Source: Halomonas sp. QHL1 | GTDB taxonomy: Bacteria; Pseudomonadota; Gammaproteobacteria; Pseudomonadales; Halomonadaceae | Length of the DNA: 64,000 bases | Direction: 5' to 3' | NCBI RefSeq assembly: GCF_001882345.1 | Contig: NZ_MINL01000001.1 | Location: 2,255,705 to 2,319,704, forward strand | Part shown: piece by piece, positions 18,944 to 35,658 of the stretch | Numbering within the stretch: the first letter of the stretch is position 1 | Layout of the letters: every line of letters starts with the position of its first letter | Notes under the pieces: model-generated | Database searches by the model: none | What the model was told of the DNA's origin: nothing | Seen by the model: only the letters and a program-made list of their open reading frames with translations | Made by a program: the position numbers and the translations under genes

Positions 18944-20212
18944 ATGAACTCGCTTACTGAACCGAAAATCGCCATAGCTGACTTACGCACTGACAGCGAT
19001 CGACTTTGGGAATCGCTGATGGAGATGGCCAAGCTAGGCGCCACTGCCAAAGGCGGCGTCAATCGCCAGGCGCTTACCGTTTTAGAACGCCAGGGGCGTG
19101 ACCTATTTATCCAGTGGTGCCGTGCCGAGGGCTGCACGATTCGGATTGATAATATCGGCAATATCTTTGCCCGCCGTGAAGGCAGCGACCCCAGCGCCAA
19201 AACGGTGATGGCAGGCAGTCACCTGGATAGCCAGCCTACCGGCGGCAAGTACGATGGCTGCTTCGGCGTGCTCTCCGGTCTGGAAGTGATTCGCACCCTT
19301 AACCAGCACAACGTCACCACCCAATCCCCTATCGAAGTCGTGGCCTGGACCAACGAAGAGGGCTGCCGCTTTCCGCCCTGCATGATGGGTTCCGGCGTAT
19401 TTACCGGCGAGCTGGAATTTGACGCCATGATGGCGCGCACAGACACCGATGGCGTCACGGTAAGCGATGCTCTGGACGCCATTCACTACCGCGGCAGCGA
19501 TAATGTCTCGCCAAGCGAGATCAAAGCCTACTTTGAACCGCACATTGAGCAGGGCCCGATTCTGGAGGATACCGATACCACCATTGGCGTGGTGATCGGC
19601 GGGCTTGGGCAGAAGTGGTTTGATTTAACCCTGACCGGGCTTGAAGCCCACGCGGGACCCACGCCGATGAATCTACGCCGCGACGCCATGATGGGTGCTG
19701 CGGAAGTTACCCAAGCGCTCAACCGGATTGCCTTTGATCATCAGCCCCACGGGCGAGGTACAGTCGGCTGTATGACGCTGCACCCCGGTTCGCGTAACGT
19801 TATTCCCGGCCAGGTCAAAATGACCTTGGATATGCGCCACTGGGAGCCTGAAGCACTCATTGCAATGGGCCAATCAGTCACCGCTGCCGTGGAAGAAATT
19901 TGCCAACGTCATGGCCTGGAGTATGAATTAACGCCCACGGCGGATTTTGCGCCGGAATACTTCGACAAAGCGTGCGTGGACGCAGTTCGCCAAAGTGCAG
20001 AGAAACTCAATCTATCTCACATGGATATCATCAGCGGCGCCGGTCACGATGCAATGTTTGTGGGCCGCGTAGCCCCTGCAGCGATGATCTTTATTCCCTG
20101 CAAAGATGGCATTAGCCATAACGAAGTTGAGAGCGCCACGCCGGCGCATGTTCATGCAGGCTGTAACGTTCTGCTTCATGCCATGCTGGACGCTGCTGGC
20201 CTAGCGGAATAG
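18944..20212 (+). CDS. Zn-dependent carbamoyl-amino-acid hydrolase, probable beta-ureidopropionase
   Basis: M20-family amidase, 422 residues, ATG preceded by AAGGAAG. Metal-binding motifs GSHLDSQPTGGKYDG, TNEEGCRFPPCMMGS, EPHIEQGPILE and GAGHDAMF, and the dimerisation domain (GLEAHAGPTPMNLRRDA), are complete. This family includes allantoate amidohydrolase, N-carbamoyl-L-amino-acid hydrolase and N-carbamoyl-beta-alanine hydrolase. The divergent beta-alanine aminotransferase/mmsA operon favours carbamoyl-beta-alanine, giving a route to acetyl-CoA with release of CO2 and ammonia. Confidence 0.85.
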   Translation: MNSLTEPKIAIADLRTDSDRLWESLMEMAKLGATAKGGVNRQALTVLERQGRDLFIQWCRAEGCTIRIDNIGNIFARREGSDPSAKTVMAGSHLDSQPTGGKYDGCFGVLSGLEVIRTLNQHNVTTQSPIEVVAWTNEEGCRFPPCMMGSGVFTGELEFDAMMARTDTDGVTVSDALDAIHYRGSDNVSPSEIKAYFEPHIEQGPILEDTDTTIGVVIGGLGQKWFDLTLTGLEAHAGPTPMNLRRDAMMGAAEVTQALNRIAFDHQPHGRGTVGCMTLHPGSRNVIPGQVKMTLDMRHWEPEALIAMGQSVTAAVEEICQRHGLEYELTPTADFAPEYFDKACVDAVRQSAEKLNLSHMDIISGAGHDAMFVGRVAPAAMIFIPCKDGISHNEVESATPAHVHAGCNVLLHAMLDAAGLAE

Positions 20213-20239: not shown

Positions 20240-21637
20240 CTAAACGGTAAAATTCACGTGTGCCCTCGCCAGCTCAGCGAACTGCTTGCGGGAGGGTTTA
20301 AAGCCCACTCCTGGCGGCCAGGCTAACCAAGCGTCAGGCACCATAAAGCCGGGGTGCGCCTCGCGTACCCAGGTGCTTAGCGCTTGTTCCGATACGGCCT
20401 CTCCGTGCCAATCGATAAACGCCACCGGGCGCTCCCCCCACTCGGGGTGGGGCACCGGCACCACCAACGCCTGGGCGACACAGGGGTTGTCGACCAAACG
20501 CTGCTCAATGGCTTCCGGCTGAATATTCTCGCCACCGGAGATAAAACCGTTATCGAGCCGCCCTTCCACCACCAGCGCGCCTTCCGTAGTAAAGTGCCCT
20601 TTGTCACGGGTGGCAAACCAACCCTCATCGTTGAGCGCTGGGTCAACCTCGCCGTCATTCAAATAACCACAGAACAGGGTTTCGCCGCGCAGCTGTATCT
20701 CTCCCTCGACTATTCTGACCTCACGACCCGGCAGCGGCCTACCGACAACGCCCGGCGCGGTGGGAATACCGGTGCAGACCTGGCTGGCCATCTCGGATAG
20801 TCCATAGCTAACCTTCGGCGTCAGCCCCAGTGATGTCATCTTCGACACCAGCGGCGCAGGAATCGCCGCGCCGCCTAGCAGCAGTTCCCGCAACTGCGTG
20901 CGCTTGGGCGTAAAGCCCGCCTTTAGCAGCCGCCAAAGCTGGGTGGGCACCAGTGAAAGGTGAGTGATTGACTGCTGTTCAAGACGCGCGGGAAGCGTGT
21001 GTGGGTCGTCATCAAGAATCACCCGTCCACCGGCGAGAAAAACGCGAAATGGAATAGCGTAGCCACCGATATGAAACAGCGGCAGCGAGAGCAGCCAGCC
21101 ACTGTTTTGATCAACAGGAATAAACGACGCCGAGCCGCGTGCGGAGGCCAAATGATTGGCCACGCGATGCAGCACTGCTTTGGGTGTACCGCTAGAGCCG
21201 GAGGTAAAAATCGTGTTGCACAGCTGGCGACCATCGAGTGCCGGAGGTTCACCTGCCTCAACTTCCTCCACAAAATCGAGGGTAATCGGCGTTAGCTGTG
21301 CGGAGTAATCATTGTCGCTTTCCGTTTGGCAGACGCGGCCAGCCTGCAAGCGCTCAGCTAAATTGAGCTGCTGGGCAACGGGAAACGTAGGGTTAAGCGG
21401 GCAAAAAATCACCCCGGCCCGCAGGCAGGCCCAAGCCAGCAGCAAGGATTCAAGCGAGCCTTTCGCGGGAACCACTAGCCGATCACCTGGCACAAAACCT
21501 TTCCGAGCCAGTTGCTGCGCTAAAGACGCCAGGCGACGATTGAGCGTCCGGTAACTAAGCGTCACCGAGCCCGCCTCTATGGCGATATGCTGCGGGGTCT
21601 CTTTGGCCCAGTAGTGAATGGGGCAGGTGTCTATCAC
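20240..21637 (-). CDS. menE: o-Succinylbenzoate-CoA ligase
   Basis: Acyl-adenylate synthetase that activates o-succinylbenzoate with CoA in menaquinone synthesis; 465 residues. The AMP-binding P-loop TIFTSGSSGTPKAVLHRVANH, LSLPLFHIGGYAIPFRVFLAGGRV, and the C-terminal domain RLDNGFISGGENIQPEAIEQRL are present. The GTG start overlaps the menC stop (GTGA), implying translational coupling. Last gene of the frdABCD-menBCE operon. Convergent with the carbamoylase gene. Confidence 0.93.
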   Translation of the reverse strand: MIDTCPIHYWAKETPQHIAIEAGSVTLSYRTLNRRLASLAQQLARKGFVPGDRLVVPAKGSLESLLLAWACLRAGVIFCPLNPTFPVAQQLNLAERLQAGRVCQTESDNDYSAQLTPITLDFVEEVEAGEPPALDGRQLCNTIFTSGSSGTPKAVLHRVANHLASARGSASFIPVDQNSGWLLSLPLFHIGGYAIPFRVFLAGGRVILDDDPHTLPARLEQQSITHLSLVPTQLWRLLKAGFTPKRTQLRELLLGGAAIPAPLVSKMTSLGLTPKVSYGLSEMASQVCTGIPTAPGVVGRPLPGREVRIVEGEIQLRGETLFCGYLNDGEVDPALNDEGWFATRDKGHFTTEGALVVEGRLDNGFISGGENIQPEAIEQRLVDNPCVAQALVVPVPHPEWGERPVAFIDWHGEAVSEQALSTWVREAHPGFMVPDAWLAWPPGVGFKPSRKQFAELARAHVNFTV

Positions 21638-22578
21638 GCTGAACTTTCCATGTTAGAGAGGCAGTGCACGTTTTCTGTCATCACTTCGCCTGTGGCGGTG
21701 GTCACGCGCTCGGTAAGCCAGTGGCCAGTACCCAGCCCTGGCGGCTCATTGGGCGCCCACTCGCTGGCCAGCCGACTCAACAGCCCAAGACCCAGATCGG
21801 ATTCGAAGCTGGAGGAGATCACCACGCAAAGATTACCCGCCCGTGCCCGTTGAACGAGTGCTTCACAGGCACTTAGCGAGCCGATCAGCGTGGGTTTGAT
21901 TACTAGGGCTTTGAGCTGTGGATGGCAGTACCACTCTTCCCGGCGCGATAGCGTTTCATCCAGAGCAATAGCCACACCGGTGGCTTCCGCCACGGCGATG
22001 GTGTCAGCGAAGGTAGCGCAGGGCTCTTCCAGGTAGTCGATTTGATTTAGGTTTAGACGCTCGCAGAAACGTAGGGCTTCTTCCCGCGTCCAGCCGCCGT
22101 TGGCATCCAGAACCAGTTTGGTGAAGGGCAGCTTAGCGGCAAGCTGTTCGATCAGCGCCAGCTCCTCTGCGATAGCGTAGCGTGCCACTTTCAGCTTGAG
22201 CCGAGATGGCGACGACGCTTGCCAATCGGCAGTTGAAAGAGTCTCTATCAACTTCCTTGGTGCACCCTGGAGCAGTGGGTAGGGCGGCAAAGGCGCAGGA
22301 AGATGGTTTGGCCAAGGGCGCTGGGCGCAGTCGAACCCAAACTGCACCGACGGCAACTTTGGGGAGACTTTCTCGCCTCGGCTCAAAGCAACCAAACAGG
22401 CCAGACTTTCCGCTTCTGCTTCCGCCAGGGTTTCCGTTGAGAAGTCAGGTAGCGGGGCAATCTCGCCCCACTGCCCGTTGATGCAGACCAGCAGCCCCTC
22501 TCTACTCGCCAGTCGCTCGCCTTTAAACGTCAGCGGCTGGCGTAGCGGTAAAGAGTAGCCGTAGAGCGCCAACTGCAT
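21634..22578 (-). CDS. menC: o-Succinylbenzoate synthase
   Basis: Enolase-superfamily dehydratase turning SHCHC into o-succinylbenzoate; 314 residues. Typical MenC blocks: LKLKVARYAIAEELALI (catalytic KxK), KLVLDANGGWTREEALRFCERL (metal Asp), YLEEPCAT (metal Glu), AIALDETL (metal Asp) and ALVIKPTLIGSL (catalytic Lys). Its ATG overlaps the menB stop (TAATG). Membership of the frd operon places it in menaquinone synthesis rather than N-succinylamino acid racemisation. Confidence 0.93.
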   Translation of the reverse strand: MQLALYGYSLPLRQPLTFKGERLASREGLLVCINGQWGEIAPLPDFSTETLAEAEAESLACLVALSRGEKVSPKLPSVQFGFDCAQRPWPNHLPAPLPPYPLLQGAPRKLIETLSTADWQASSPSRLKLKVARYAIAEELALIEQLAAKLPFTKLVLDANGGWTREEALRFCERLNLNQIDYLEEPCATFADTIAVAEATGVAIALDETLSRREEWYCHPQLKALVIKPTLIGSLSACEALVQRARAGNLCVVISSSFESDLGLGLLSRLASEWAPNEPPGLGTGHWLTERVTTATGEVMTENVHCLSNMESSA

Positions 22579-23438
22579 TAAGGGTTACGCGGGTAGCGGG
22601 AGAAGTCCGGGCGGCGCTTTTCGTTGAAGGCGTTACGGCCCTCCTGCCCCTCTTCGGTCATGTAGTAGAGCATGGTGGCATTACCCGCCAGCTCCTGCAG
22701 ACCGGCCTGGCCGTCGCAGTCGGCATTGAGCGCGGCTTTTAGGCAACGCAGCGCCATAGGGCTGTGCTGCAGCATTTCCCGGCACCAGCGCACGCTTTCT
22801 TTTTCCAGCTCTTCCAATGGCACCACGTGGTTGACCAGCCCCATTTCCAGCGCTTGGGCGGCGCTATATTGGCGGCACAAAAACCAGATCTCCCGGGCCT
22901 TTTTCTGGCCCACAATGCGCGCCATATAAGAGGCGCCGTAGCCGCCATCGAAGGAGCCTACTTTGGGGCCTGTTTGACCGAAGACAGCGTTTTCGGCCGC
23001 AATGGTTAGGTCACACATTAGATGCAGCACGTGGCCGCCGCCGATGGCGTAGCCCGCCACCATGGCGACCACCGGTTTGGGGCAGGTACGAATATCGCGC
23101 TGGAAGTCCAGCACGTTGAGGTGGTGGGTGCCCTCTTCATCCTGGTAGCCGCCATAGTCTCCGCGAATGCGCTGGTCACCGCCGGAACAGAACGCTTTAT
23201 CGCCTACACCCGTAAGCAGAATGGCACCAATGGCGCTGTCGTGGCGGGCGCGGTTAAGCGCTTGGGCCATCTCGCTAACCGTCAGCGGGCGAAAGGCGTT
23301 ACGTACCTCTGGCCGGTTGATGGTGATACGCGCAATGCCATCGGCAGTGGTGTGGTACAAAATATCCTGATAGCCATCGGAGCGATCCTGCCACTCTACC
23401 GGCGCATAGAGTTCCGTTTCAGTGAGTCCGTTGATCAT
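22578..23438 (-). CDS. menB: 1,4-Dihydroxy-2-naphthoyl-CoA synthase
   Basis: Crotonase-family ring-closing enzyme, 286 residues as in E. coli MenB. Signatures: [55 protein letters not shown] (oxyanion hole), [55 protein letters not shown] (nearly invariant in MenB, with the catalytic Asp/Tyr region), ending [20 protein letters not shown]. Starts 48 bases after frdD on the same strand, suggesting one transcript. Confidence 0.96.
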
Positions 23439-23485
23439 GCCACTCTCTTTTTATCTGTTGGAGCGAAATGCTGACAGCGAGCCGT

Positions 23486-23881
23486 TTAACCCGGCATACC
23501 TGTGACGACTAGACCCAGCGCCACAATGCTTAACAGCGCAGCCCCACCGTACATCAGTTTTTTGTTAAGTGCGTCATTGCCCACGCTGATATCAAACAGT
23601 CCATGGCGTAGGCGATGAGCGGCATGAAATAGCGGCAAGCAAACTACTGCCCCAACAAACAGAAAACCCGGTACGCTAAACAGCAGCGTTGAGGCCCGCT
23701 CATAGCTCAGCGCCTCGGCGGGCAACAGGCCAAGGGGCAGCAGAACCGCAATAAAGAGAATAACGGCGGGTAGCAAGACGGCAAAACAGACGCCGCCCGC
23801 GCTAAACAGCCCCCACCAGAGCGGTTCATCAAAGGCCTGTTTGTGCTGAGTGCGGTGTTTGTTCATGGCTATTTTTTCCAT
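23486..23881 (-). CDS. frdD: Fumarate reductase membrane anchor D
   Basis: Small three-helix membrane anchor of quinol:fumarate reductase, 131 residues from the ATG at 23881 (GGGGAGGG seven bases upstream). Matches E. coli FrdD: EPLWWGLFSAGGVCFAVLLPAVILFIAVLLPLGLLPAEALSYERA and PLFHAAHRLRHGLFDI. With FrdC it holds FrdAB at the cytoplasmic membrane and binds menaquinol. Begins three bases from the frdC stop. Confidence 0.92.
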   Translation of the reverse strand: MEKIAMNKHRTQHKQAFDEPLWWGLFSAGGVCFAVLLPAVILFIAVLLPLGLLPAEALSYERASTLLFSVPGFLFVGAVVCLPLFHAAHRLRHGLFDISVGNDALNKKLMYGGAALLSIVALGLVVTGMPG

Positions 23882-23883
23882 GT

Positions 23884-24279
23884 TTATGCCCTCCCCAATA
23901 GCCAGAAAAACAGCAGCGTGACCGCTACGACTCCTGCCCACTGCCCGGCAACAATGGCCTGATCAGGCAGGCTATGCCCGGCGATACGAATCGGCATTAC
24001 CCGTGGAAACAGCACAAAGAAAGTGGCGGCGTGAAACAGGCTAGCGGCCAGGGCTAGAAGATTCAGCAACAGCACAATGGGGGAGCCCATAAAGGCGATC
24101 CAACCCTGCCAGCTATCCGCCCCTCGAAGAAGAGCAACCATGCCAGCGAGTAAACAGAGCGTGAAAAACACCAGCGGCAGTACCGTGGCTTCGCGCAGCA
24201 TATAGAGCTTAAAAAAGCGATGTTTCAGCCACCAGTTGCGTTTCAGCGGCGGCAGGCGTTGCGATGATAATTTATCCAT
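23884..24279 (-). CDS. frdC: Fumarate reductase membrane anchor C
   Basis: 131 residues, three hydrophobic helices. Matches E. coli FrdC: RNWWLKHRFFKLYMLREATVLPLVFFTLCLLAGMVALL (with the conserved YMLRE), GSPIVLLLNLLALAASLFHAATFF (conserved His region). Together with FrdD it forms the quinol site. Between frdB and frdD in a tight operon. Confidence 0.92.
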   Translation of the reverse strand: MDKLSSQRLPPLKRNWWLKHRFFKLYMLREATVLPLVFFTLCLLAGMVALLRGADSWQGWIAFMGSPIVLLLNLLALAASLFHAATFFVLFPRVMPIRIAGHSLPDQAIVAGQWAGVVAVTLLFFWLLGRA

Positions 24280-24291
24280 GACGTTCCTCCC

Positions 24292-25059
24292 CTACCCTTT
24301 GAACAGCGCAATGAGTGTGTGCTTGGCCGCTTCGACCTTGCTCTGATTCACAGCAGCGGCTGGGTCAACGTGTTTGGGGCACACCTTGGAGCAGAAGCCC
24401 ACAAACGTGCAGCTCCACACCCCCTCATGACGGTTAAGTTCGGCCATACGCTGCTTCTTACCATGGTCGCGGCTATCCAGGTTGTAACGATGGGCCAGCG
24501 TTAGCGCCGCCGGGCCAAGGAACTCAGGATTAAGCCCGAACTGCGGGCAGGCCGAGTAGCAGAGGCCACAATTAATGCAGTTCGCGAACTGCTTATAGCG
24601 GGCGAGCTGTTCGGGTGACTGCTGATAGGTTTCCGGCGCCTGGGGGTCGTATGGTTTTACTGGGTTGTCATCGATCAGGTAGGGCTTAACCGCCGCCAGG
24701 TGCTCAAGGAATATCTCCATATCCACCACCAGGTCCCGCTGCACGGGGAAGTGGGATAGCGGCTCGATGCGAATCTCACCTTCATAATCGCGCAGGAAGG
24801 TTTTGCAGCCGAGCTTGGGAATGCCGTTAACCATCACGCCACAAGAGCCGCAAATCGCCATCCGGCACGACCAGCGGTAGCTCAAGGTGCTATCGAGCTG
24901 CTCTTTGATATGGTTGAGGGCATCCAACAGAGAAGTGCTGTCGTCCACCGGCAGTTCGTACTGCTGCCAATAGGGTTCTGCCGAGCTGTCGGGCATGTAG
25001 CGTTTGACGCTGATGTGCTTGGTGCTGACGTTCTTAGCATTGATCTGCTCGGTATTCAT
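24292..25059 (-). CDS. frdB: Fumarate reductase iron-sulfur subunit
   Basis: 255 residues. N-terminal [2Fe-2S] ferredoxin domain with [22 protein letters not shown]-terminal clusters [12 protein letters not shown] ([4Fe-4S]) and [17 protein letters not shown] ([3Fe-4S]/[4Fe-4S]). The FrdB-type [16 protein letters not shown] and [18 protein letters not shown] blocks place it with fumarate reductases rather than succinate dehydrogenases. Its start overlaps the frdA stop by four bases. Confidence 0.95.
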
Positions 25060-26843
25060 GCCTTGCCCCCTTTGCCTGCATCGCCATAGGCCCGCTCAGC
25101 TGGTACAGAAAACCGCACATCGACGTCCTGCCAGTGCAGTTCGGCCGGAGCTTCGCCTTGATAGAACACCTGGCTGTGCTTGAGGTAATTAACGTCGTCG
25201 CGTTTCTGCATGCCTTCATCCAGGCGCTGATGAGCACCGCGGGATTCACGGCGCTCCAGGGCACTTAAGCAAGAAGCTTCGGCGATATCCAAGCCATAGC
25301 CAAGCTCGATGCACTCCAGTAGCTCGGTGTTAAATATCTTGCTGGTGTCTTTAACGCGTATTTCATTGAAGCGAGCGCGCAGCTGGCGCATGGTCTCCAG
25401 AGAGTGGCGCATGCCCTCTTCAGTTCGGTAAATACCGCAGCCACTCTCCATGGCCTGCACCATGGCGTGCTTGAGATCGACCCAGTTTTCCCCACTTCCA
25501 GTTCCATCACAGAGGCGCAGCAGCTTGGCTTGCTGACGGTCACCCTGGGCTTCCAGCAGCCGTTCATCGGCCCACTCGGTTTGCGATGCGCGCTTGCTGG
25601 CTTGCTCACCGGCCAAGCGGCCAAATACCAGCAGCTCAGTTAGCGAATTGGAACCTAGGCGGTTAGCGCCGTGCAGCCCCACCGAGGCGCACTCCCCGGC
25701 GGCGTAGAGCCCCGCGATAGAGGTTTCGCACTGGGGGTTGGTTTCAATCCCGCCCATGGTGTAGTGCACCGCCGGGCGAATAGGAATGGGTTCTTTCACC
25801 GGATCAACATTGATATAGGCTTTGGCCAGCTCGCAGATAAACGGCAGGCGCTCCAAAATATACTTTTCACCCAAGTGACGCAGGTCGAGATAAACCACAT
25901 CGCTGTCACCAAACTTGCCTGTGCGTCCCGCCTGCTGCTCCTGCCAGAAGGCTTGGGAGAGTTTGTCTCGCGGCCCCAGCTCCATGTATTTGTTTTCCGG
26001 CTTGCCCAGCGGGGTTTCCGGTCCAAGGCCGTAATCCTGCAGGTAGCGGTAGCCATCTTTATTGAGCAAAATACCCCCTTCGCCCCGGCACGCTTCGGTA
26101 ATCAAAATGCCGGAGCCGGGCAGGCCAGTAGGGTGGTATTGAACAAATTCCATATCCCGCAGCGCCACGCCGTGCCGATAGGCCATCGCCATGCCGTCGC
26201 CGGTGACAATGCCCGCGTTGGTATTGAAGCGGAACAAACGCCCTGCGCCGCCGGTAGCGAGAATGACCGCTTTAGCGCGCAGCAGAGTCAGTTCACCGGT
26301 GGCTATCTGCAGGGCAATCACGCCGATTACAGCGCCCTCGTGAACGGCCAGGTCGAGCACAAAGAACTCATCAAAGCGCTCGATTTCTGGGTACTTCAGC
26401 GAGGTCTGAAACAGGGTATGGAGCATATGGAAGCCGGTTTTGTCGGCCGCGAACCAGGTGCGGGCGGTTTTCATGCCGCCAAAGCGGCGCACCTGTACCT
26501 GGCCATCGTCTTTGCGGCTCCAGGGGCAGCCCCAACGCTCCATCTGCACCAGTTCTTGATAAGCGTGATGGACAAAGTAGTCGACGACGCCTTGCTCAAC
26601 CAGCCAGTCACCGCCTGACACCGTGTCGTCAAAATGCGCCTGATGGGAATCCTCGGCACTGGTAACGGCGGCGGCGCCGCCTTCAGCGGCCACGGTATGG
26701 GATCGCATGGGATACACCTTGGACAGCAGCGCAATGCGCTGGGGGGTGCCCTGCTCCTTGGCCTGCTCGGCAGCACCAATAGCAGCGCGCAAACCTGCTC
26801 CACCCCCACCTACAATGACGATATCGAAATCTCGCTGCTGCAT
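25056..26843 (-). CDS. frdA: Fumarate reductase flavoprotein subunit
   Basis: Catalytic subunit reducing fumarate to succinate, 595 residues from the ATG at 26843 (GGAAGGGG five bases upstream; a longer frame adds 15 unsupported residues). Rossmann motif [14 protein letters not shown], covalent-FAD His in [15 protein letters not shown] (about residue 49), substrate-site blocks [21 protein letters not shown], and [18 protein letters not shown]. First gene of frdABCD-menBCE; the upstream intergenic region carries an FNR-type site, consistent with anaerobic induction. Confidence 0.96.
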
Positions 26844-26960
26844 GACAACCCCTTCCGTTAGCCAGGTCAAAGGTGTTACTGGCGGCAATCTTCGCTGCCG
26901 TCTTGTTTATTCGAACTTACCACGCCCGTTGCAGACCTTGCTCATTAGTCGAAAAGACTA

Positions 26961-26974
26961 TTGACGCACATCAA
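26961..26974. promoter_or_regulatory. FNR/ANR-type binding site between frdA and the dicarboxylate carrier
   Basis: TTGACGCACATCAA matches the FNR/ANR consensus TTGAT-N4-ATCAA at 9 of 10 specified positions. It lies 118 bases from the frdA start and 140 bases from the divergent transporter start, where it could serve either promoter under oxygen limitation. Confidence 0.75.
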
Positions 26975-27113
26975 GTAAGCAGTGAATCGAGTGGGTATTA
27001 CTGTTCCCCTCGTGTCGCAACCCCTACTCTTCAAGCCACTCACTGCAGGCAGATGGCTGCCTACCAAGCGACAAAGAAAACCTTACTGCAAAAATTGAAG
27101 AGAGAGGTGCCGC

Positions 27114-28583
27114 ATGACGTCCAATGCCCAACCCTCACCGCGATGGAAACTGTTAGCGCCGCTAGCAGTCGCTATCATCGTCGCGCTGATACCCACTCCC
27201 CTGGGGCTTGCGCCTCATGCGTGGTTCTTTTTCGCCATTTTCCTCGGCTGTGTCGTTGGCCTTATTCTTGAACCCTTACCGGGTGCAGTGGTGGGCCTGG
27301 TCGGCGTTACCCTGGTGGCACTGCTTTCTCGGTGGGTGCTGTTCTCTCCGGAGCAACTGGCGACTGACGGATTTAATGCCGCGGGCCAAGCCTTCTCATG
27401 GGCGGTGTCAGGCTTTACCAACTCCACCGTCTGGCTAATTTTTGGCGCCTTTATGTTTGCCCTGGGCTATGAAAAAACCGGCTTGGGCAGGCGAATATCG
27501 CTTTGGCTGGTCAAGGCAATGGGGAAGCGCACCTTGACCCTTGGCTACGCAGTGATGATTGCCGATGGCATTCTAGCGCCGTTTACGCCCTCGAACACCG
27601 CGCGCAGTGCGGGCACGATCTATCCAGTCATTCGCAATCTACCGCCGCTTTACGATTCACACCCCAACGACCCCAGCATGAAGCGCATGGGTAGCTTTCT
27701 AATGTGGACGGCGCTGGCCTCTACCTGTGTGACCAGCTCGCTATTTTTGACCGCCCTGGCACCCAATCTATTGGCTATCGCGCTAACCGAGAGCGCGACA
27801 GGTATTAATATCAACTGGGGGCAGTGGTTTATGGCGGTAGCACCTGCCGGCATTGTGCTGCTTATGCTGGTGCCGCTGCTGAGCTACTGGCTATGCGCGC
27901 CCGAAGTGAAAGCGGGTAATGAAATCTCCGACTGGGCGGGACAGGAGTTAACCAAGCTAGGGGCACTGACCCGCCATGAAATAATGCTGGTCGTTATGGT
28001 GGTCACTGCGCTGCTGCTATGGATTTTTGCGGGCGACATTATTTCTGGATCGCTGGTGGGTCTACTGGTGATCTGCGGCATGCTGTTAACTGGCATTGTG
28101 TCCTGGAGCGATATTCTCGATAACCGAGCAGCCTGGAATACCTTTGTGTGGTTTGCCACCCTGGTGGCGCTAGCGGGCGGGCTTAGCCAAGTAGGCTTCG
28201 TTAACTGGTTTGGCAGTGTGGTCGGCGGACAGATAAGCCACTTCGACCCGCTGATGGCCATGGTGGCGCTGGTGGTGATTTTCTATCTACTGCACTACTT
28301 CTTTGCTAGCGTGACGGCCCACGTTACCGCCCTGCTGCCAGTGATTCTGGCGGCAGCTACCGGGATTGCCGGACTGGATATGCAGATGTTTATTCTGCTG
28401 CTGCTACCCACACTTGGCTTTATGGGCATTCTCACCCCCTACGGTACAGGGCCAAGCCCGGTCTACTACGGCAGCGGCTATCTGCCCAGCGCCCTCTTTT
28501 GGCGGCTGGGGGCGATCTTCGGACTGCTATTCCTGGTGGTCTGGCTAGCGATTGGCCTGCCCTGGTTAATGCTAATCAGCTGA
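27114..28583 (+). CDS. DASS-family dicarboxylate carrier (CitT/TtdT-like)
   Basis: Inner-membrane anion transporter of the divalent anion:sodium symporter/antiporter family, 489 residues with 11-12 hydrophobic segments. The signature segments FTPSNTARSAGTIYPVIRNLPPLYDSHPNDP and PYGTGPSPVYYGSGYL are shared with CitT, TtdT and plant oxoglutarate/malate translocators, many of which exchange succinate for another dicarboxylate. Divergent from frdA across an FNR-type site, so it is a good candidate for fumarate/malate uptake with succinate export during fumarate respiration. Substrate inferred, not shown. Confidence 0.85.
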   Translation: MTSNAQPSPRWKLLAPLAVAIIVALIPTPLGLAPHAWFFFAIFLGCVVGLILEPLPGAVVGLVGVTLVALLSRWVLFSPEQLATDGFNAAGQAFSWAVSGFTNSTVWLIFGAFMFALGYEKTGLGRRISLWLVKAMGKRTLTLGYAVMIADGILAPFTPSNTARSAGTIYPVIRNLPPLYDSHPNDPSMKRMGSFLMWTALASTCVTSSLFLTALAPNLLAIALTESATGININWGQWFMAVAPAGIVLLMLVPLLSYWLCAPEVKAGNEISDWAGQELTKLGALTRHEIMLVVMVVTALLLWIFAGDIISGSLVGLLVICGMLLTGIVSWSDILDNRAAWNTFVWFATLVALAGGLSQVGFVNWFGSVVGGQISHFDPLMAMVALVVIFYLLHYFFASVTAHVTALLPVILAAATGIAGLDMQMFILLLLPTLGFMGILTPYGTGPSPVYYGSGYLPSALFWRLGAIFGLLFLVVWLAIGLPWLMLIS

Positions 28584-28591
28584 CCGGTGAG

Positions 28592-29353
28592 TTAGCCAAG
28601 CGTCTGATACCAGGCGTTGAGGTTATGTGAGATGTCATCCGGCTGCTCGGAATGGAGATTGTGGCCCCCCTCTAGCGTGATATGACGCAAACGGGGGGCC
28701 AGGCTGGCTAAACGGGATGCCAAGTGATGAAACTTGGCATCCCGCCGACCTGAAAAATACCCCACCGGTAGCGAGGTATCTTCCAGCCACTGCCAAAGCG
28801 AGGGCTGATGACCGAGGGAGGTCGCCCGCAGCATTTTGGCGACAGCAGGCCCGTGATTAGCGCCGAGACGACGTTGAATCTGCCGAGTCCGCTGGACCTC
28901 CGTTAGATCGGCGAACACCGGCTGCTGATACCAGTCGGCAAGCACATCCTCTAATGGCTCCTGCTCGAAACGTGTTGCCCAGCGTTCATCGTGGGCAATA
29001 CGTGCAGAGCGCTCGTTTGCAGGCAGCCCTGGGTGAGCGCTCTCCAGCCAGAGCGCTTCCAGCCCCGATGGCTGACGGCTGGCATGATAAAGCGCCAAAC
29101 GCCCGCCCAGGGAGTAGCCCAGCAGGCAGTAGCGACTAACGCCTCGATCTATCAATGTGTCGCAAAGCCAGTGGTGAAACGCCTCAAACGAGGCTACCCG
29201 TACTCGGTGATTCTGGCCGTGCCCTGGCAAGTCCAGCGCCAGGCAATCTACCCCATCCAAGCCAGCACTCACCTCCGCCCAGTCGTGGCGGTCGCCCAGC
29301 AAGCCATGCAGCAGTACCAGAGTTGGCGCCTGCGTCTGAAATTTACTGCTCAC
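28592..29353 (-). CDS. menH: SHCHC synthase (alpha/beta hydrolase)
   Basis: Eliminates pyruvate from SEPHCHC to give SHCHC. About 253 residues from a GTG at 29353 with GAGGGGAG four bases upstream; this overlaps the menD end by 11 bases. Alpha/beta hydrolase motifs: [15 protein letters not shown] (oxyanion hole), nucleophile elbow [15 protein letters not shown], catalytic His in [12 protein letters not shown]. Operon with menF and menD identifies it among the many hydrolases of this fold. Confidence 0.9.
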
Positions 29354-31097
29354 GCGTCTCCCCTCGAATCTCTTCACCAAGATCCTTGAGATCATCGGCG
29401 ACCTGCTGATGGGGTACGTTAACCTCGATCAACGTAACGCCCGCCTGCAGTGCCTGGGTGTAGGCCGCCGAGAAGGCATCCAATGAGCTGGGCGCTGAAT
29501 AGCCAAGCCCAAACATCTTCGCCGCATGCTCGAAGTGTAAGCCATGGGGCTGGCGGTAATAGCGCTCCAGCAGTTCGCCCTCTTTGGGCACCGGCAGCAT
29601 ATGGAAAATACTGCCGCCATCGTTATTGAGGATAACCACCACCAGGGGCTGGGAGGCCCGTTTCAGCAACGCCAAGCTGTTGAGGTCATGTAGCGCGCTG
29701 GTATCCCCCAACACGATAGTCGTGGGTTCCGAGCATGTGCAGCTGAGGCCATAGGCCGTTGCGATCAGGCCATCGATACCCGACGCGCCACGATTAGCCA
29801 ATACCCGCAGCGGCTTTTGGCGATGCTTCCCCAGCATATTCATTAGCCGCGCAGGCAGGCTGTTGCCTATAAACAGCTGCCCTTCAGCCAACTGTGCTAA
29901 AAGGTGGCAAACACCCACTTCTGAGAATGCCGTACACCGCTCTTCCACAAGCAGGCTGGTGCGGTGTTGGAGACTACCCAACTGATGCCAAGGCGATTGT
30001 TCTGAGTGCGTTGGCAAATCAGCGACAAAGTCGGCAGGCGAGCATATCAAACGGCGCTTAACGCAGTAGTCAGGATCCAGCCGCTGGGGCAGCGGATCAA
30101 CCAACCAGACATCCTGCCAGGGCTGCTGGGCAATAAATTGGCTTAACCGCTTGGAGATTAACCGACCGCCAAACTGGAGCAGCACTTCTGCCTTGGCGAG
30201 TTCAGCGCTGAAACGCTCATCATGCAGCGCCAGATCAAAGTGAATCAGGTTGTAAGGGTCAAACCGAACCTGGCTCTGTATGTCGGCTAGCAGCGGCCAG
30301 CCGAGTTGCTTGGATAGCTCAACAGCATACTGCGCCTGATGGGAATCATCAACACTGTCTTCAACCCTGCCAACCACAATCAGGCCCCGCTGCTGGGCAA
30401 ACGTTTCCCACTCGTTGTTGAGCGCTGGAACCACCGTACTGGATGACCAATTACTCCACGGCTTTGAAGTCGTCAGCCAATCCCCCAGCGGTGCGAGATA
30501 GTCACTAGCATCCATAGGGCAACTGCCAGGATAAAGCGGTTCGCGATAACGGCAGTTAATATGGATGGGCCCAGGGGTGCGACGCTGCTGGTCGACGGCT
30601 TGGTCAAGGGTGCTGAGTAGAAACGCTGCTTTTATCTCAGCATCTGGCGGCGGCAGGTCGTGGTGAACAGTGGTGTGTCGGGAGAAAATATCCCGCTGGT
30701 CAATCGCCTGGTTGCTGCCGTTATCCAGCAGCTCAATGGGGCGGTCGGCAGAGAGGACGATAAGCGGCACGCCGAGCAGTTTGGCTTCCACCACTGCCGG
30801 GTAGAGGTTCGCGACGGCAGTGCCCGAAGTGGTGATAACCGCCACCGGGCGCTGACTGCCACGGGCAATACCGAGCGCCATAAAGCCTAGCCCACGCTCA
30901 TCAAAGTGGCAGTGGCAGCGCAGCCCGGCGTGTTCGCTGGCGGCCATGGTTAACGGCGATGAGCGAGAGCCCGGCGCCAGCACTACGTCGCGCACGCCTA
31001 AGCGGTAGAGTTCTTCCAGCATCAGCGCCGCCCACACATGATTAAAGGTGGCGTGCTCTTTCGCAATACCGCTCGATGTTAGTGCCGTCATATGCAT
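29343..31097 (-). CDS. menD: SEPHCHC synthase
   Basis: Thiamine-diphosphate enzyme joining 2-oxoglutarate to isochorismate, the committed step of menaquinone synthesis; 584 residues, usual length. MenD blocks: [92 protein letters not shown], and the ThDP/Mg motif [13 protein letters not shown]...[12 protein letters not shown]. Its start shares a base with the menF stop (TAATG). Confidence 0.96.
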
Positions 31098-32422
31098 TAT
31101 CCCATCCCAAGCAGCGACATAATGTCAGCGATTTTAGTATCCAGCTCGCGCCACTCCTCGCCCGGCTGGGAGCCTGCCACAATGCCTGCACCGGCATAAA
31201 GACGAATCGCTTCTGGGCCGATATGGGCACAGCGAATAGCCACCGACAGATCGCTACTGGTGTGGCTGATTCGGCCGAACACGCCCGCATACCAGCCGCG
31301 GCGATGGCGCTCATGGTGGCGAATAAATGCCAGCGCCGACTCGCGGGGAACACCGCCTACCGCCGGGGTAGGCGGCAGCACTGAAAGCAGTTGCTGGTCG
31401 GAGACGTCACTGCGAAGCTCGGCGTGAATCAGACGACGGATATGCTGCACGGAGCGCAGCTTAACAATATGCGCCTCGCCCATATGAAAGTGAGAAGAAA
31501 GCGGCTCAAGCTGGGTCAAAAGCTGCTGATAGACGCACTGGTTTTCCAGGCTGTTTTTCTTATCGGCCAGCAGTTCATTGGCAAGCCCTTGATCTTGCTG
31601 GGCATCCCGCCCGCGGCGCGTGGTGCCCGCCAGTGCTTCGGTCGTTAAATGCCTACCTTCACGCTTATAGAGTTGCTCCGGTGGGCAGCCGATAAACGCC
31701 TCATGCGGGGTCAATTGGACGCCAAAGTGAAAACAGTCGGCGGCACCAGCCTGCCAGCGCGCAAGCAGCGCCCAAGGGCTGGGCGTTTCAGATGTCGTCA
31801 GGTACGTCTCCCGGGAAAGCACTACCTTGGGCGTGTGAGCCAGATGGTCTGGATTAGTGATTTGCACCACCGACGCCGCCCACTCTTGCTGGGAAGGGCG
31901 GTCTTCACGCTGATAAATATGCGGCAGCAAGTGAGGCAGCGGTTGCTCCGCTTCCAGCGCAGCCAAACAGCTGCGAGCCTGGGCTATTTCGGCCTCTGGG
32001 CAGCGGTCGTCAAAGCGCAGATTGAGTGATAGCGTCACCCCAGTTTGTTGGCGCCTAAGCTCTATACGCGGCAGCAAAAAATGGCAGCCAGGAAAGTGCT
32101 GCCACCCAGGCGTATTGGTGTCGAAAGCCATGCCGCCGAAGTAGTCCGGCTGCTCGCCACCCAAATCAGCCAGCGTAGCAAGGTCAGCCTGCAGCGCGGC
32201 TAGTGAACCAAACGCCTTAACAGCCCCCAACGCCGCATACTCAACGGCACCAGCTTCACGGGATTGCCAATAGAGGCGGGGATAAACGCTCTGCACGTTT
32301 AACCACCCCATCAGGTTACCGACCTGACAGGGCGTACTTAGACGTATAAACCCTTTTTGTGCGCTATCACTAAGCGCATCAAGCTGCTGCTTAAGTGCTT
32401 CAATAGGGTGTATAGAGTACAT
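31097..32422 (-). CDS. menF: Isochorismate synthase
   Basis: Converts chorismate to isochorismate, the entry point to menaquinone (or siderophores). 441 residues from the ATG at 32422 behind AAAAGGCG. Chorismate-binding domain in the C-terminal half: [46 protein letters not shown] and [24 protein letters not shown]. First gene of menFDH, so menaquinone rather than siderophore synthesis. Divergent from menA with a 226-base gap containing promoters. Confidence 0.94.
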
Positions 32423-32546
32423 AATTCGCCTTTTAGGCAAGCGTGACTAGCGCCGCATATTTGTATTGTCTAAATAAGTTGCCAATCATCGCGTAAACTC
32501 CTGACACAGAACACCCACAGTGTGGGGTAAGGCGACACGAATAGCT

Positions 32547-32560
32547 TTGACTTAAGTCTA
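32547..32560. promoter_or_regulatory. Palindromic element between menF and menA
   Basis: TTGACTTAAGTCTA contains the perfect palindrome GACTTAAGTC, with the left half matching the TTGAC half of the frd FNR-type site but a poor right half. It could be a weak FNR-type site or another operator; only weakly supported. Confidence 0.2.
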
Positions 32561-32648
32561 CTTTTTAGCACTTAATCATACATTGCTGAATGTTTGGTAA
32601 TTGCCACGCCAGCCACTGTTGAAACGAGAACAGAGGAATATCGACATA

Positions 32649-33575
32649 ATGGAACGACTCGCTAAGCGCCGCCACTACCAAGCCTGGTTGCTAGCCGCTC
32701 GCCCCCGAACACTTCCGCTGGCGTGCGCGTCGATTCTGCTGGGCAGTGGGCTAGCGGCGAGTGCGGATGCTTTTAATGCTGGGGTGCTGTTGCTTGCCCT
32801 GCTGACCGCGATTGCCCTCCAGGTACTCTCCAACCTGGCCAACGATTATGGTGATGCCGCGTCTGGTGCCGATGATCAGGCGCGCATTGGGCCGGTGCGG
32901 GCGGTCTCTTCAGGCTTGCTAAGCCCACAGGCTATGCGCAGAGGGATGGTGGTAACGGGCATTGTTGCAGCGTTATTAGGACTGTTGTTACTGGTGACCG
33001 CCTTTGGCAACCAGTGGGGGCAAATTGCCACCTTTGTACTCCTAGGCGCTGCCGCTTTATTAGCAGCGGTGACCTATACCGTTGGGCTGGGGCACACACC
33101 CTATGGGTATCGGGGATTAGGCGATATTTCAGTCTTTGTGTTTTTTGGACTGCTCGGCGTATTGGGCACCTACTATCTACATGTACAGCAACTAAGTTGG
33201 TTGCCCTTTCTGCCCGCGGCGGCGTGTGGGCTGCTGGCAACCGCGGTGCTCAATGTCAATAACGTACGCGATATAGAAAGCGACGCGCGCAACGGCAAAA
33301 TCACCCTTGCAGTGCGGTTAGGCCGCGCTAACGCGATTAACTACCACTGGGCATTGCTGGGCATGGCGCTGCTGCTAACCTTGATCTATTTGGTTGCCCT
33401 GCCGGTACCGCTGTTGGGGTGGAGCTGCCTGCTGGTGGCCAAACCGCTTTCTGATGCTGCCAGAACATTAAACCTTAGCCGCGATGGCGAGACTCTGACC
33501 GCCATGCTGAAGAAAACAGCCATTTCAACACTGCTTTACAGCGTGCTGCTGTCTATTGGCTTGGCGCTGTTTTAG
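32649..33575 (+). CDS. menA: 1,4-Dihydroxy-2-naphthoate polyprenyltransferase
   Basis: UbiA-superfamily integral membrane enzyme attaching the polyprenyl tail to dihydroxynaphthoate, giving demethylmenaquinone. 308 residues from the ATG at 32649. Family features: AARPRTLPLACASILLGSG at the start, first Asp-rich motif NLANDYGDAASGADDQARIGPVRAVSSG, second NVNNVRDIESDARNGKITLAVRLG. Completes, with menFDHCEB in the window, the path to demethylmenaquinone except for the MenI thioesterase; methylation would use UbiE/MenG encoded elsewhere. Confidence 0.95.
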   Translation: MERLAKRRHYQAWLLAARPRTLPLACASILLGSGLAASADAFNAGVLLLALLTAIALQVLSNLANDYGDAASGADDQARIGPVRAVSSGLLSPQAMRRGMVVTGIVAALLGLLLLVTAFGNQWGQIATFVLLGAAALLAAVTYTVGLGHTPYGYRGLGDISVFVFFGLLGVLGTYYLHVQQLSWLPFLPAAACGLLATAVLNVNNVRDIESDARNGKITLAVRLGRANAINYHWALLGMALLLTLIYLVALPVPLLGWSCLLVAKPLSDAARTLNLSRDGETLTAMLKKTAISTLLYSVLLSIGLALF

Positions 33576-33636: not shown

Positions 33637-33939
33637 TTACAGCACTACTTCATAACCCTCAAACTTGGGCGGGCCAAGGTAAATGCCTTCGGGCGCTTTG
33701 GCGTTGGCGTGAGCTTTGCGGAACGCATCTGACTTGGTCCAGTCGCGGAAGGCTTCTTCCGACTCCCACACGCTGTGGGAGATAAACACGGTGTGATCTT
33801 CCTGGCTTTCACCCTGCAGCATCTTAAATTGCTTGAAGCCCGGCACTTCATCCAGGTGAGAGTCACGGTTGCGCCACACTTCTAAAAAGTCCTCTTCGCG
33901 GCCTGGGGCAATCCGAAAACGGTTCATGGCGATATACAT
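33637..33939 (-). CDS. Antibiotic biosynthesis monooxygenase (ABM) domain protein
   Basis: Small dimeric ferredoxin-like alpha/beta-barrel protein, 100 residues from the ATG at 33939 (AGGAG eight bases upstream). Sequence MYIAMNRFRIAPGREEDFLEVWRNR...GFKQFKMLQG, VFISHSVWESEEAFRDWTKSDAFRKAH and EGYEVVL follow the ABM/IsdG-like pattern. Relatives include heme-degrading HmoB/IsdG-type proteins and quinol monooxygenases. No heme-specific residue assignment was made, so function is open. Convergent with menA. Confidence 0.8.
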   Translation of the reverse strand: MYIAMNRFRIAPGREEDFLEVWRNRDSHLDEVPGFKQFKMLQGESQEDHTVFISHSVWESEEAFRDWTKSDAFRKAHANAKAPEGIYLGPPKFEGYEVVL

Positions 33940-34077
33940 AATGACGCTCCTGTTCAACGGGTTCTGCTAGGTAAGTGACGCAAATAGTGGCTTGATGGTA
34001 ACGTTCTGGGGTTATGACGAATAGCTCCCATCACGAATAAGCTTCCCGGCGAATAGCCCGCATCGCCCAGGTAACAA

Positions 34078-35658
34078 ATGGCTAAGGCACCCATTCAGGT
34101 CGTTTGGTTCAAACGCGATTTACGCATTCATGATCACGCGCCGCTTTTTAACGCAGCCGCGGCTGGCCCCGTGCTGCCCGTATTCGCGATAGAACCTGAC
34201 CAGTGGCAAGCACCGGACAGCGCGCTGCGCCACTGGCAATTTGCTGCCGACTCGCTGGCTGATCTTTCTCAAGCGCTGATAACGCTGGGTTTGCCGCTGT
34301 GCCTATGGCAAGGCAGCATGCTTGAGCTGCTGGCCGCGTTTAAAACGCACTATGGCGAGCTTGTCCTTCACTCCCACGAGGAGACCGGTAACGCCTGGAG
34401 CTTTGCCCGTGACCTCGACGTCAAAGCATGGTGCCAGCAGCACGACACGCCATGGCATGAAGTGCGCCAGCACGGCGTAGTGCGTGGTTTAACGTCGAGA
34501 GTGGCCGACCGCAACGCATGGGAAAAACAGTGGGAAACGTTAATGACGGCTCCCACCCCCACTGCCCCGCAAAACGCCCAGGCGGCCGAGGGCTGGCAAG
34601 CCTTTCACCATATTGATGTCGAACAGCTTCACAGCCTGACGCTAGGGTTTGATACCACGCCCTGCCCCGAGCGCCAGCCAGGGGGGCGAAGCGAAGGGCG
34701 CGCAGTATGGCGCAGCTTTGTAAGCCAGCGCGGGCGGCGCTATCGCGGCTCGCTTTCCAAACCGCTGCTGGCCTGGGAATTTGGCTCACGGCTTTCGCCT
34801 CACTTGGCCTGGGGCACGCTCTCCATGCGCGAAGTGGTGCAGTCGCTGCGCCGCCAGCGGAAAAAGCATACAGAAGACACACCCTGGTCACGCTCACTGC
34901 GCGCCTTTGCCTCCCGGCTTCACTGGCACTGCCACTTTATTCAAAAGCTCGAAAGTGAGCCGAGCATAGAGTCACAAACGCTGCACCCCGCGCTGCGTGA
35001 CCTGCGGGAGCGCGACCCCGAACACCCCAACCTGATTGCTTGGAAGCGTGGCCAAACCGGCGTGCCATTGGTGGATGCCTGCATGCGCAGCCTGATCGCT
35101 ACCGGTTGGATCAACTTTCGCATGCGCGCCATGTTGCTCTCCCATGCCACCTTTGGCCTTGGGCTGCATTGGTACGAACCTGCCCTGCACTTGGCGCGGC
35201 TGTTTACCGATTTTGAGCCCGGCATTCACTACTCCCAAGTGCAGATGCAGGCAGGCGCCACGGGCACCAATGCCCTGCGGGTGTATAACCCCATCAAACA
35301 GGCGGAGGATAACGACCCTACCGGAGAGTTTGTCGCCCGCTGGGTGCCGGAATTAACGACACTGCCGTTAGAGTGGCGCGCCAAGCCCTGGGCGGTACCG
35401 GAAAGTTTGCGCCAACGATTTGGTTTTCAGCCCGGCGAGCACTACCCGCTGCCCAACGACTTTGAAACCGAAGCTCGGCATTGGAAGAAGATGCTGTATG
35501 AGCTTCGCCGCACGCCAGAGGCCAGAGAAGCCAGCCAAGCCATTGTGGATAAGCTTGCTAGCCAGCGAAGACCACCCACTCAGCGCGCTAAAAAAGCAAA
35601 ACCCGCCAATCGCCAGCAGCTTTCGCTGTTTGATAATGGCGGGTTGGAGGATTTGTAG
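34078..35658 (+). CDS. Cryptochrome/photolyase family protein with clamp-binding-like tail
   Basis: Flavoprotein of the photolyase superfamily, 526 residues. N-terminal Rossmann domain (VVWFKRDLRIHDHAPLFNAAAAGPVLPVFAIEPD), then the FAD-binding domain: RGRRYRGSLSKPLLAWEFGSRLSPHLAWGTLS, WHCHFIQKLESEPS, LVDACMRSLIATGWINFRMRAMLLSH, LFTDFEPGIHYSQVQMQAGATGTNALRVYNPIKQ. The last block is the usual active-site region. Whether it repairs CPDs, 6-4 products or acts as a cryptochrome cannot be decided; it resembles the short cryptochrome-like group. The C-terminus carries QLSLF (514-518), a canonical sliding-clamp-binding pentapeptide. It ends in the first copy of a 3' repeat. Confidence 0.88.
   Translation: MAKAPIQVVWFKRDLRIHDHAPLFNAAAAGPVLPVFAIEPDQWQAPDSALRHWQFAADSLADLSQALITLGLPLCLWQGSMLELLAAFKTHYGELVLHSHEETGNAWSFARDLDVKAWCQQHDTPWHEVRQHGVVRGLTSRVADRNAWEKQWETLMTAPTPTAPQNAQAAEGWQAFHHIDVEQLHSLTLGFDTTPCPERQPGGRSEGRAVWRSFVSQRGRRYRGSLSKPLLAWEFGSRLSPHLAWGTLSMREVVQSLRRQRKKHTEDTPWSRSLRAFASRLHWHCHFIQKLESEPSIESQTLHPALRDLRERDPEHPNLIAWKRGQTGVPLVDACMRSLIATGWINFRMRAMLLSHATFGLGLHWYEPALHLARLFTDFEPGIHYSQVQMQAGATGTNALRVYNPIKQAEDNDPTGEFVARWVPELTTLPLEWRAKPWAVPESLRQRFGFQPGEHYPLPNDFETEARHWKKMLYELRRTPEAREASQAIVDKLASQRRPPTQRAKKAKPANRQQLSLFDNGGLEDL

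Follow-up and report, generated by a model that had tools for sequence, protein, structure and literature searches.

A linked fumarate reductase and menaquinone gene block in Vreelandella, and a possible route of quinone precursor salvage in its relatives

Genes and layout of the block

We analysed a stretch of 64,000 nt from Halomonas sp. QHL1 (NZ_MINL01000001.1; genome 4.16 Mb; genus Vreelandella, former Halomonas), which is called the window below. It contains a block of 12 genes (20240–33575) encoding fumarate reductase (frdABCD), a carrier of the DASS family and the enzymes of menaquinone synthesis (men). Genes were called by profile matches to NCBIfam and Pfam, and bit scores are given as score of curated cut-off (Table 1). 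Each of the 12 genes matches best the NCBIfam family after which it is named, and the scores exceed one or more curated cut-offs for FrdA, FrdB, FrdD, MenB, MenC, MenD, MenF, MenH, MenA and the carrier. FrdC (136.0 of 143 bits) and MenE are slightly below their NCBIfam cut-offs; FrdC is above the Pfam cut-off for Fumarate_red_C (PF02300).

The minus strand carries the run frdA-frdB-frdC-frdD-menB-menC-menE, with overlaps at frdA/frdB (ATGA), menB/menC (TAATG) and menC/menE (GTGA). A gap of 47 bases separates frdD from menB, and a terminator scan found no terminator there. A second minus strand run consists of menF-menD-menH (menF/menD overlap TAATG), while menA and the carrier are located on the plus strand. 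The first-pass annotation of this DNA had described a tight seven-gene run, a second men run, a divergent menA and a carrier divergent from frdA, all of which were found at these places; its GTGA and TAATG overlaps are correct for menC/menE and the TAATG junctions, whereas frdA/frdB is ATGA. A terminal reductase and its quinone are tied together in one gene run. The block contains the whole classical (o-succinylbenzoate) pathway set MenF, D, H, C, E, B and A, with MenE slightly under its cut-off. Neither MenI, the thioesterase for the coenzyme A (CoA) ester of 1,4-dihydroxy-2-naphthoate (DHNA), nor the methyltransferase UbiE is encoded in the block, the rest of the genome not having been searched for either. 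The earlier term "self-contained" is therefore supported only in part.

FrdABCD comprises four subunits, two of them small membrane anchors, and the nearest solved chains are those of the E. coli enzyme (1kf6). In the alignments FrdB-Lys228, FrdC-Arg28/Glu29 and a FrdD Trp are identical to 1kf6; these are, in role and numbering, what we take to be its menaquinone-site residues. Judged from its sequence, FrdABCD is an E. coli-type quinol:fumarate reductase. The DASS carrier is probably a C4-dicarboxylate exchanger, since 6wtw and the plant dicarboxylate transporters 1 and 2.1, its nearest solved sequences, are presumably exchangers.

The interval between frdA and the carrier contains an FNR/ANR-like box. 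Among the 42 genomes from which this interval could be excised, 41 have such a box with up to two mismatches (letter shuffles: 12%) and 30 have one with at most one mismatch (letter shuffles: 1%); the sole genome without it is G191 (genomes are given by G numbers, loci by L numbers). In the whole window (1–64000) we counted 42 boxes with up to two mismatches versus 18 expected, thus the weight rests on the position and conservation of the box and not on the match alone. The frd-men run and the carrier probably share one regulator, as the position of the box suggests.

The enzymes of the linked frd-men unit are known ones, and their arrangement is new. E. coli has the same enzymes, the same FrdABCD type and the same men order (menFDHBCE, contiguous), but its frd genes lie approximately 2 Mb from men, which agrees with the separate loci stated in the first-pass annotation; in the window, frd and the DASS carrier separate menH from menB. 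Aeromonas caviae (NZ_AP026896.1) resembles the window in having menA divergent from a contiguous menFDHBCE set, with MenD 63% and MenB 84% identical, and differs in having no frd or carrier match within 12 kb on either side of menD. Since the Aeromonas set is contiguous, the window reads as an Aeromonas-like set in which a carrier-frdABCD cassette separates menH from menB.

Table 1. Features of the frd-men block and its flanks (positions in the window; bits as score of curated cut-off).
Feature	Position	Strand	Basis
Flank: hydantoinase/carbamoylase-family amidase	18944..20212	+	same flank in the G254 locus, which lacks menFDH and menBCE
menE, o-succinylbenzoate--CoA ligase	20240..21637	-	NCBIfam menE, 321.8 of 330 bits, the best match on the curated scale
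menC, o-succinylbenzoate synthase	21634..22578	-	NF003473, 239 of 236 bits
menB, DHNA-CoA synthase	22578..23438	-	TIGR01929, 474 of 342.7 bits
frdD	23486..23941	-	NF003977, 103 of 60 bits; E. coli FrdD 1kf6_D E 1.8e-23; listed with a GTG start, a later ATG is likely
frdC	23884..24279	-	PF02300 above cut-off; 1kf6_C E 7e-25
frdB, iron-sulphur subunit	24292..25059	-	NF009051, 405.7 of 333 bits; 1kf6_B E 5e-105
frdA, flavoprotein	25056..26888	-	NF006686, 1003 of 854 bits; 1kf6_A E 2e-259; translation probably begins at the ATG at 26843
FNR/ANR-like box TTGACGCACATCAA between frdA and carrier	26961..26974	+	1 mismatch to TTGAT-N4-ATCAA
DASS-family carrier	27114..28583	+	TIGR00785, 474 of 198.6 bits; nearest solved chains 6wtw, 6wu1, plant dicarboxylate transporters 1 and 2.1
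menH	28592..29395	-	TIGR03695, 257.7 of 208.6 bits
menD	29343..31097	-	TIGR00173, 448 of 244 bits
menF, isochorismate synthase	31097..32440	-	TIGR00543, 312.7 of 224.8 bits
menA, DHNA polyprenyltransferase	32601..33575	+	TIGR00751, 295 of 102 bits; both Asp-rich motifs
Flank: hmuQ heme-degrading protein	33637..33957	-	NF053649, 153.9 of 130 bits; same flank in many relatives
Flank: photolyase/cryptochrome-like gene	34078..35658	+	best matches photolyase/cryptochrome families, all under cut-off

The locus in the family and in relatives without DHNA-making genes

Profile cut-offs were applied to 275 genomes of the family, 82 of them in the window's genus, which includes Vreelandella titanicae BH1 (G267) and V. 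boliviensis LC1 (G201). MenD is above cut-off in 37 genomes (32 in the genus), FrdA in 55 (40 in the genus) and MenA in 66. FrdA is present in 36 of the 37 MenD genomes. Pairs corrected for the rpoB tree gave 9.1 for and 0 against a FrdA-MenD association (median p 0.004), and 10.5 for and 0.7 against one of FrdA with MenA (median p 0.006). The rpoB tree has 77 rows, with 15 genus members left out, G238 and G245 giving no rpoB match and G266 having a broken rpoB; like the FrdA and MenA trees it is a single-gene "quick" tree with long-branch warnings.

The synteny comparison across Halomonadaceae that had been suggested earlier showed the men-frd order of the window in 29 of the 33 MenD-positive genomes in which the locus was read, thus the arrangement is not due to chance. 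Four further MenD-positive loci (G193, G199, G220, G242) were not read; the distance between MenD and FrdA there is about that of the window. Among the 29, G031 has no menA at this place, G237 has no carrier, additional genes separate carrier and frdA in G246, and the distance from menA to menF is approximately 6.5 kb in G258 and G238. In G269 (L048/L219; deposited as H. ventosae NRS2HaP1) the block has no menE after menC in the stretch read. As to the remaining four, G253 is divided over contigs yet compatible, the men genes of G192 and G093 are more distant ones that do not lie by frd, and G191 is rearranged, with the carrier-frd cassette between menF and menD. This placement suggests that cassette and men set came together, or changed their order, on more than one occasion; the cassette is also present without men genes in several other genera of the family. 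Altogether, the link between reductase and menaquinone pathway proposed at first sight is upheld by the shared gene run, the co-occurrence of FrdA with MenD and the FNR-like box. Frameshifts in H. sulfidaeris BAA-803 (G266; L057/L101) and H. olivaria TYRC17 (G223; L058/L100) were treated as assembly errors and not counted as losses, because the G266 rpoB is broken likewise and completeness is low (74 and 86); the rpoB of G223 is intact.

Four Vreelandella genomes (G254, G241, G195, G235) keep menA, the carrier and frd, and lack menFDH and menBCE (men-less below). The order in G254, photolyase-hmuQ-menA-carrier-frdABCD-amidase-aminotransferase, is that of the window minus menFDH and menBCE, with approximately 60 and 110 bases, respectively, at the sites of the two gene sets. 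G241 has the flanks of G254, except that a few other genes separate frdD from the aminotransferase gene, the G195 locus has one flank in common, and in G235 (L073) menA-carrier-frd is located beside nitrate-reductase/molybdenum-cofactor genes (narI-moaA cluster). The FNR-like box is retained in all four. In both the rpoB and the FrdA tree the sister of G241 is G248, a genome with the full block, and G254 lies outside these two, and the rpoB tree places G235 and G195 in the sister group of G272 (full block). If loss were the sole process, these trees would require at least three losses of the DHNA genes.

The MenA proteins of these four genomes are orthologues of full-locus MenA and keep both Asp-rich motifs. 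The ratio of nonsynonymous to synonymous substitution rates (dN/dS) is 0.107–0.143 in six pairs with men-less members versus 0.104–0.135 in three men-bearing pairs, these pairwise values including the time before the loss. MenB and MenF are above cut-off in only 3 of the 39 genomes tested (G000, G031, G093), all of them MenD-bearing. Hidden MenB or MenF genes in men-less genomes were considered and rejected, none being above cut-off. A MenB-like protein just under the cut-off (321–326 of 342.7 bits) occurs in G254, G098, G212, G039 and G047; since the window's MenB also matches BadI, these proteins may be BadI-like. The futalosine pathway was likewise rejected as a quinone source: its family PF02621 is above cut-off in none of the 24 genomes tested, of which 19 are men-less and have FrdA and 5 are men-bearing, with sub-threshold matches of approximately 24 bits in G067 and G098. 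MenA is thus kept where MenD, MenB and MenF are absent and no futalosine family is found in G254, G241, G195, G235, G212, G231, G232 and G072.

MenA2, its BASS neighbour and possible DHNA salvage

Besides the MenA of the block there is a second kind, MenA2, whose locus was read in 20 genomes of the family and in four genomes of a second gammaproteobacterial family (f141); it is the form found in the majority of the remaining MenD-less genomes with a MenA. Twenty-three of the 24 fall into a single supported clade; the other, G665, is absent from the MenA tree, and the MenA loci of G141, G243, G245 and four MenD-bearing genomes were not read. MenD is above cut-off in two of the 24 (G031, G093), the other MenA2 genomes of the family having been tested for MenD, MenB and MenF and those of f141 for MenD only. 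The next neighbour of MenA2 is a divergent gene of the BASS (bile acid:sodium symporter) family in 21 of the 24 loci (18 of 20 in the family, 3 of 4 in f141). G194, G239 and G646 have no BASS neighbour, and in G099 only a piece of the BASS gene was matched. Across all MenA loci with sufficient flanking sequence, a condition that excluded 5 genomes, BASS adjoins MenA in 16 of 26 MenD-less versus 2 of 31 MenD-bearing genomes of the family (Fisher p 9e-6, without tree correction). Outside the family the counts are 3 of 11 MenD-less versus none of 19 MenD-bearing genomes, Aeromonas being counted among the latter.

In G031, which has menFDH-carrier-frd-menBCE, and in G093 with its more distant men set, the MenA2 beside BASS is the only MenA match; MenA2 must therefore act on DHNA there, if these pathways work. 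Three of the BASS proteins are above the cut-off of PF01758 (SBF domain) and match the narrower TIGR00841 below its cut-off (150–164 of 326 bits). One protein (L112) was aligned to 3zux and is identical at the residues that we take to form the Na+ sites, which would fit uptake.

The BASS protein is a candidate DHNA importer. It might instead export, or transport an unrelated compound such as pantoate, and its pairing with MenA2 might be neutral linkage; we consider this a serious alternative, though one on the weaker side of even. In favour of it, the BASS subfamily is broad, both TIGR00841 and PanS were matched below cut-off, the pair persists in the MenD-bearing G031 and G093, three MenA2 loci do without BASS, and in G099 the match covers only a piece of it. 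Neutral linkage fits less well with a pairing that recurs in 21 of 24 loci of two families and is missing from all 19 MenD-bearing MenA loci outside the family, and the conserved Na+-site residues would fit import. Searches of open-licence papers gave no title on a DHNA importer.

Two observations on MenA loci stand beside these. The narI-moaA clusters of G239 (L117) and G194 (L207), which contain MenA2, and of G235, which contains the block's menA, link the prenyltransferase to nitrate respiration also. Two small genomes of family f151 (G423, L242; G535, L243) have a MenA match, no MenD above cut-off and no BASS neighbour, and might be other DHNA users.

Taken together, we consider it likely that the block serves fumarate respiration in the absence of oxygen, that within the genus it has mostly been inherited and frequently lost, and that its men-less lineages take up DHNA made by others. 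The function in fumarate respiration is well supported, by gene content alone; the reading of the origin has partial support. The DASS-frdABCD cassette would have been placed between menH and menB of an Aeromonas-like menA/menFDHBCE set. Without oxygen, a regulator of the FNR/ANR type would switch on frdABCD-menBCE and, divergently, the carrier. MenFDHCBE would make DHNA and MenA would prenylate it, and the product (menaquinone, or demethylmenaquinone if not methylated) would feed FrdABCD, with the carrier exchanging external C4-dicarboxylates for succinate. Some lineages presumably lost the DHNA-making genes, rather than others regaining them, and kept menA and frd; these, together with the MenD-less relatives that have MenA2-BASS, would import DHNA from other bacteria.

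A wider proposal is tentative and to our mind somewhat short of probable: Halomonadaceae and the second family might hold a naphthoquinone salvage system, in which MenA2 and the divergent DHNA-importing BASS protein allow fumarate or nitrate respiration on a ring made by neighbours. The window's block would be the self-sufficient form, and the men-less relatives would derive from it by deletion of exactly the DHNA-making genes, perhaps repeatedly. If true, DHNA salvage by these relatives is the surprising part. A comparable case is Lactiplantibacillus plantarum, a DHNA-dependent quinone auxotroph which, according to PMC10746273, has kept late men genes, lacks DHNA synthesis and contains menaquinones after growth with DHNA. 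That system concerns lactic acid bacteria and extracellular electron transfer; the present one concerns gammaproteobacteria, fumarate reductase and a candidate importer beside MenA2. An exchange of quinone precursors has been hypothesised by Ravcheev and Thiele (2016; PMC4746308), with the expectation that the transport genes should exist and remain to be annotated; the MenA2-BASS pair would be a concrete candidate. The same locus with and without DHNA synthesis offers natural experiments on the sharing of quinone precursors among respiratory bacteria.

Besides the time before loss contained in the dN/dS values, several points weigh against the reading considered likely above. The importer's specificity is guessed from gene neighbourhood, and in G254, G241 and G195 no BASS gene was found in the 19 kb of sequence covered around menA, the rest of these genomes not having been searched. 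The carrier of G235 appears truncated. In the MenA tree G241, G254 and G195 fall together next to G248 (support 80 and 91), contrary to rpoB and FrdA, which makes the number of losses unsure; with recombination, two are possible. Among men-less genomes the raw link between frd and MenA (11 of 19 versus 19 of 219, Fisher p 8e-7) shrinks after tree correction to 3.3 for and 0.8 against (median p 0.38). Halomonas is described with ubiquinone-9 (Q-9), and full-text searches of open-licence papers gave no title on menaquinone together with Halomonas, Vreelandella, menD or fumarate reductase; such quinone profiles, if obtained under oxic conditions, may overlook a quinone made in the absence of oxygen. 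Finally, 9 of the 55 FrdA genomes have no MenA above cut-off.

This last count also favours the possibility that men-less FrdABCD uses ubiquinone or another quinone, e.g., rhodoquinone, and that the MenA relatives prenylate a substrate other than DHNA. So does a different gene of the UbiA family (UbiA4), which follows frd in G147 and G153 and lies beyond an aspartate ammonia-lyase gene in G171; six f141 loci also have a UbiA-family gene by the frd genes, UbiA4 in five and a weaker MenA-like match in G759. We nevertheless regard this as unlikely, because the MenA proteins of the four men-less Vreelandella are orthologous to that of the full locus, with both Asp-rich motifs and dN/dS of 0.11–0.14, and because MenA2, as the only MenA match beside other men genes in G031 and G093, has to act on DHNA if those pathways work. 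As side observations, UbiA4 adjoins frdA in the MenD-less f141 loci L255, L257, L258, L264 and L266. In L079 (G153), L087 (G147) and L083 (G171), the aspartate ammonia-lyase gene (approximately 630 aa) is located beside frdABCD and a UbiA-family prenyltransferase, so that a gene for making fumarate from aspartate stands beside the reductase of fumarate. L079 and L087 also carry the DASS carrier, and the aspartate ammonia-lyase of L079 has an N-terminal cyclic nucleotide (cNMP)-binding domain.

Descent of the block

Inheritance with frequent loss, the other part of the preferred reading, was compared with transfer. FrdA of the Vreelandella blocks forms one supported group that tracks rpoB in its main features, 17 of the 19 genomes sampled from the window's clade have the block, and its flanks are common to many, not all, relatives. 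The G+C content of the block is ordinary, the window contains no tRNA, and a DNA search of 72,556 plasmid records matched the block solely in a 1.83 Mb non-mobilizable replicon of Halomonas sp. PA16-9. On the other hand, the distribution of MenD requires 18 changes and that of FrdA 16 on the 77-genome rpoB tree. FrdA of G212, G231 and G232, which belong to the window's genus, groups with other genera, so the men-less frd-carrier piece has moved. FrdA of G235 is nearly identical to that of G272 while their MenA are far apart (synonymous divergence, dS, 0.065 versus 1.275), and FrdA of G195 groups with G237 and not with the rpoB neighbours of G195; both patterns indicate local recombination.

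From these comparisons the locus in the genus appears to be mainly inherited and often lost, with no sign of a recent island. The first-pass annotation had called the module possibly transferable and proposed a FrdA tree against the species tree: recent transfer of the block is not supported, given the FrdA tree, the shared flanks, the missing tRNA and the ordinary G+C, whereas movement of the men-less frd-carrier piece is. That the block is a recently transferred, self-contained respiratory island is in our view quite improbable: the patchy presence of MenD (37 of 275) and FrdA (55 of 275), the many changes on the tree, the FrdA of G212, G231 and G232 and the local recombination would fit it, but the shared flanks, the ordinary composition, the near-constant presence in the clade, the agreement of FrdA with rpoB in main features within the genus and the single matching replicon speak against it.

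One further locus was noted. G214 (L123/L217) contains a menA 88% identical to that of the window and a shortened menF-like frame (322 aa), with other genes between them, and the genome has neither FrdA nor MenD above cut-off; this locus seems to be what is left of the block in the course of decay.

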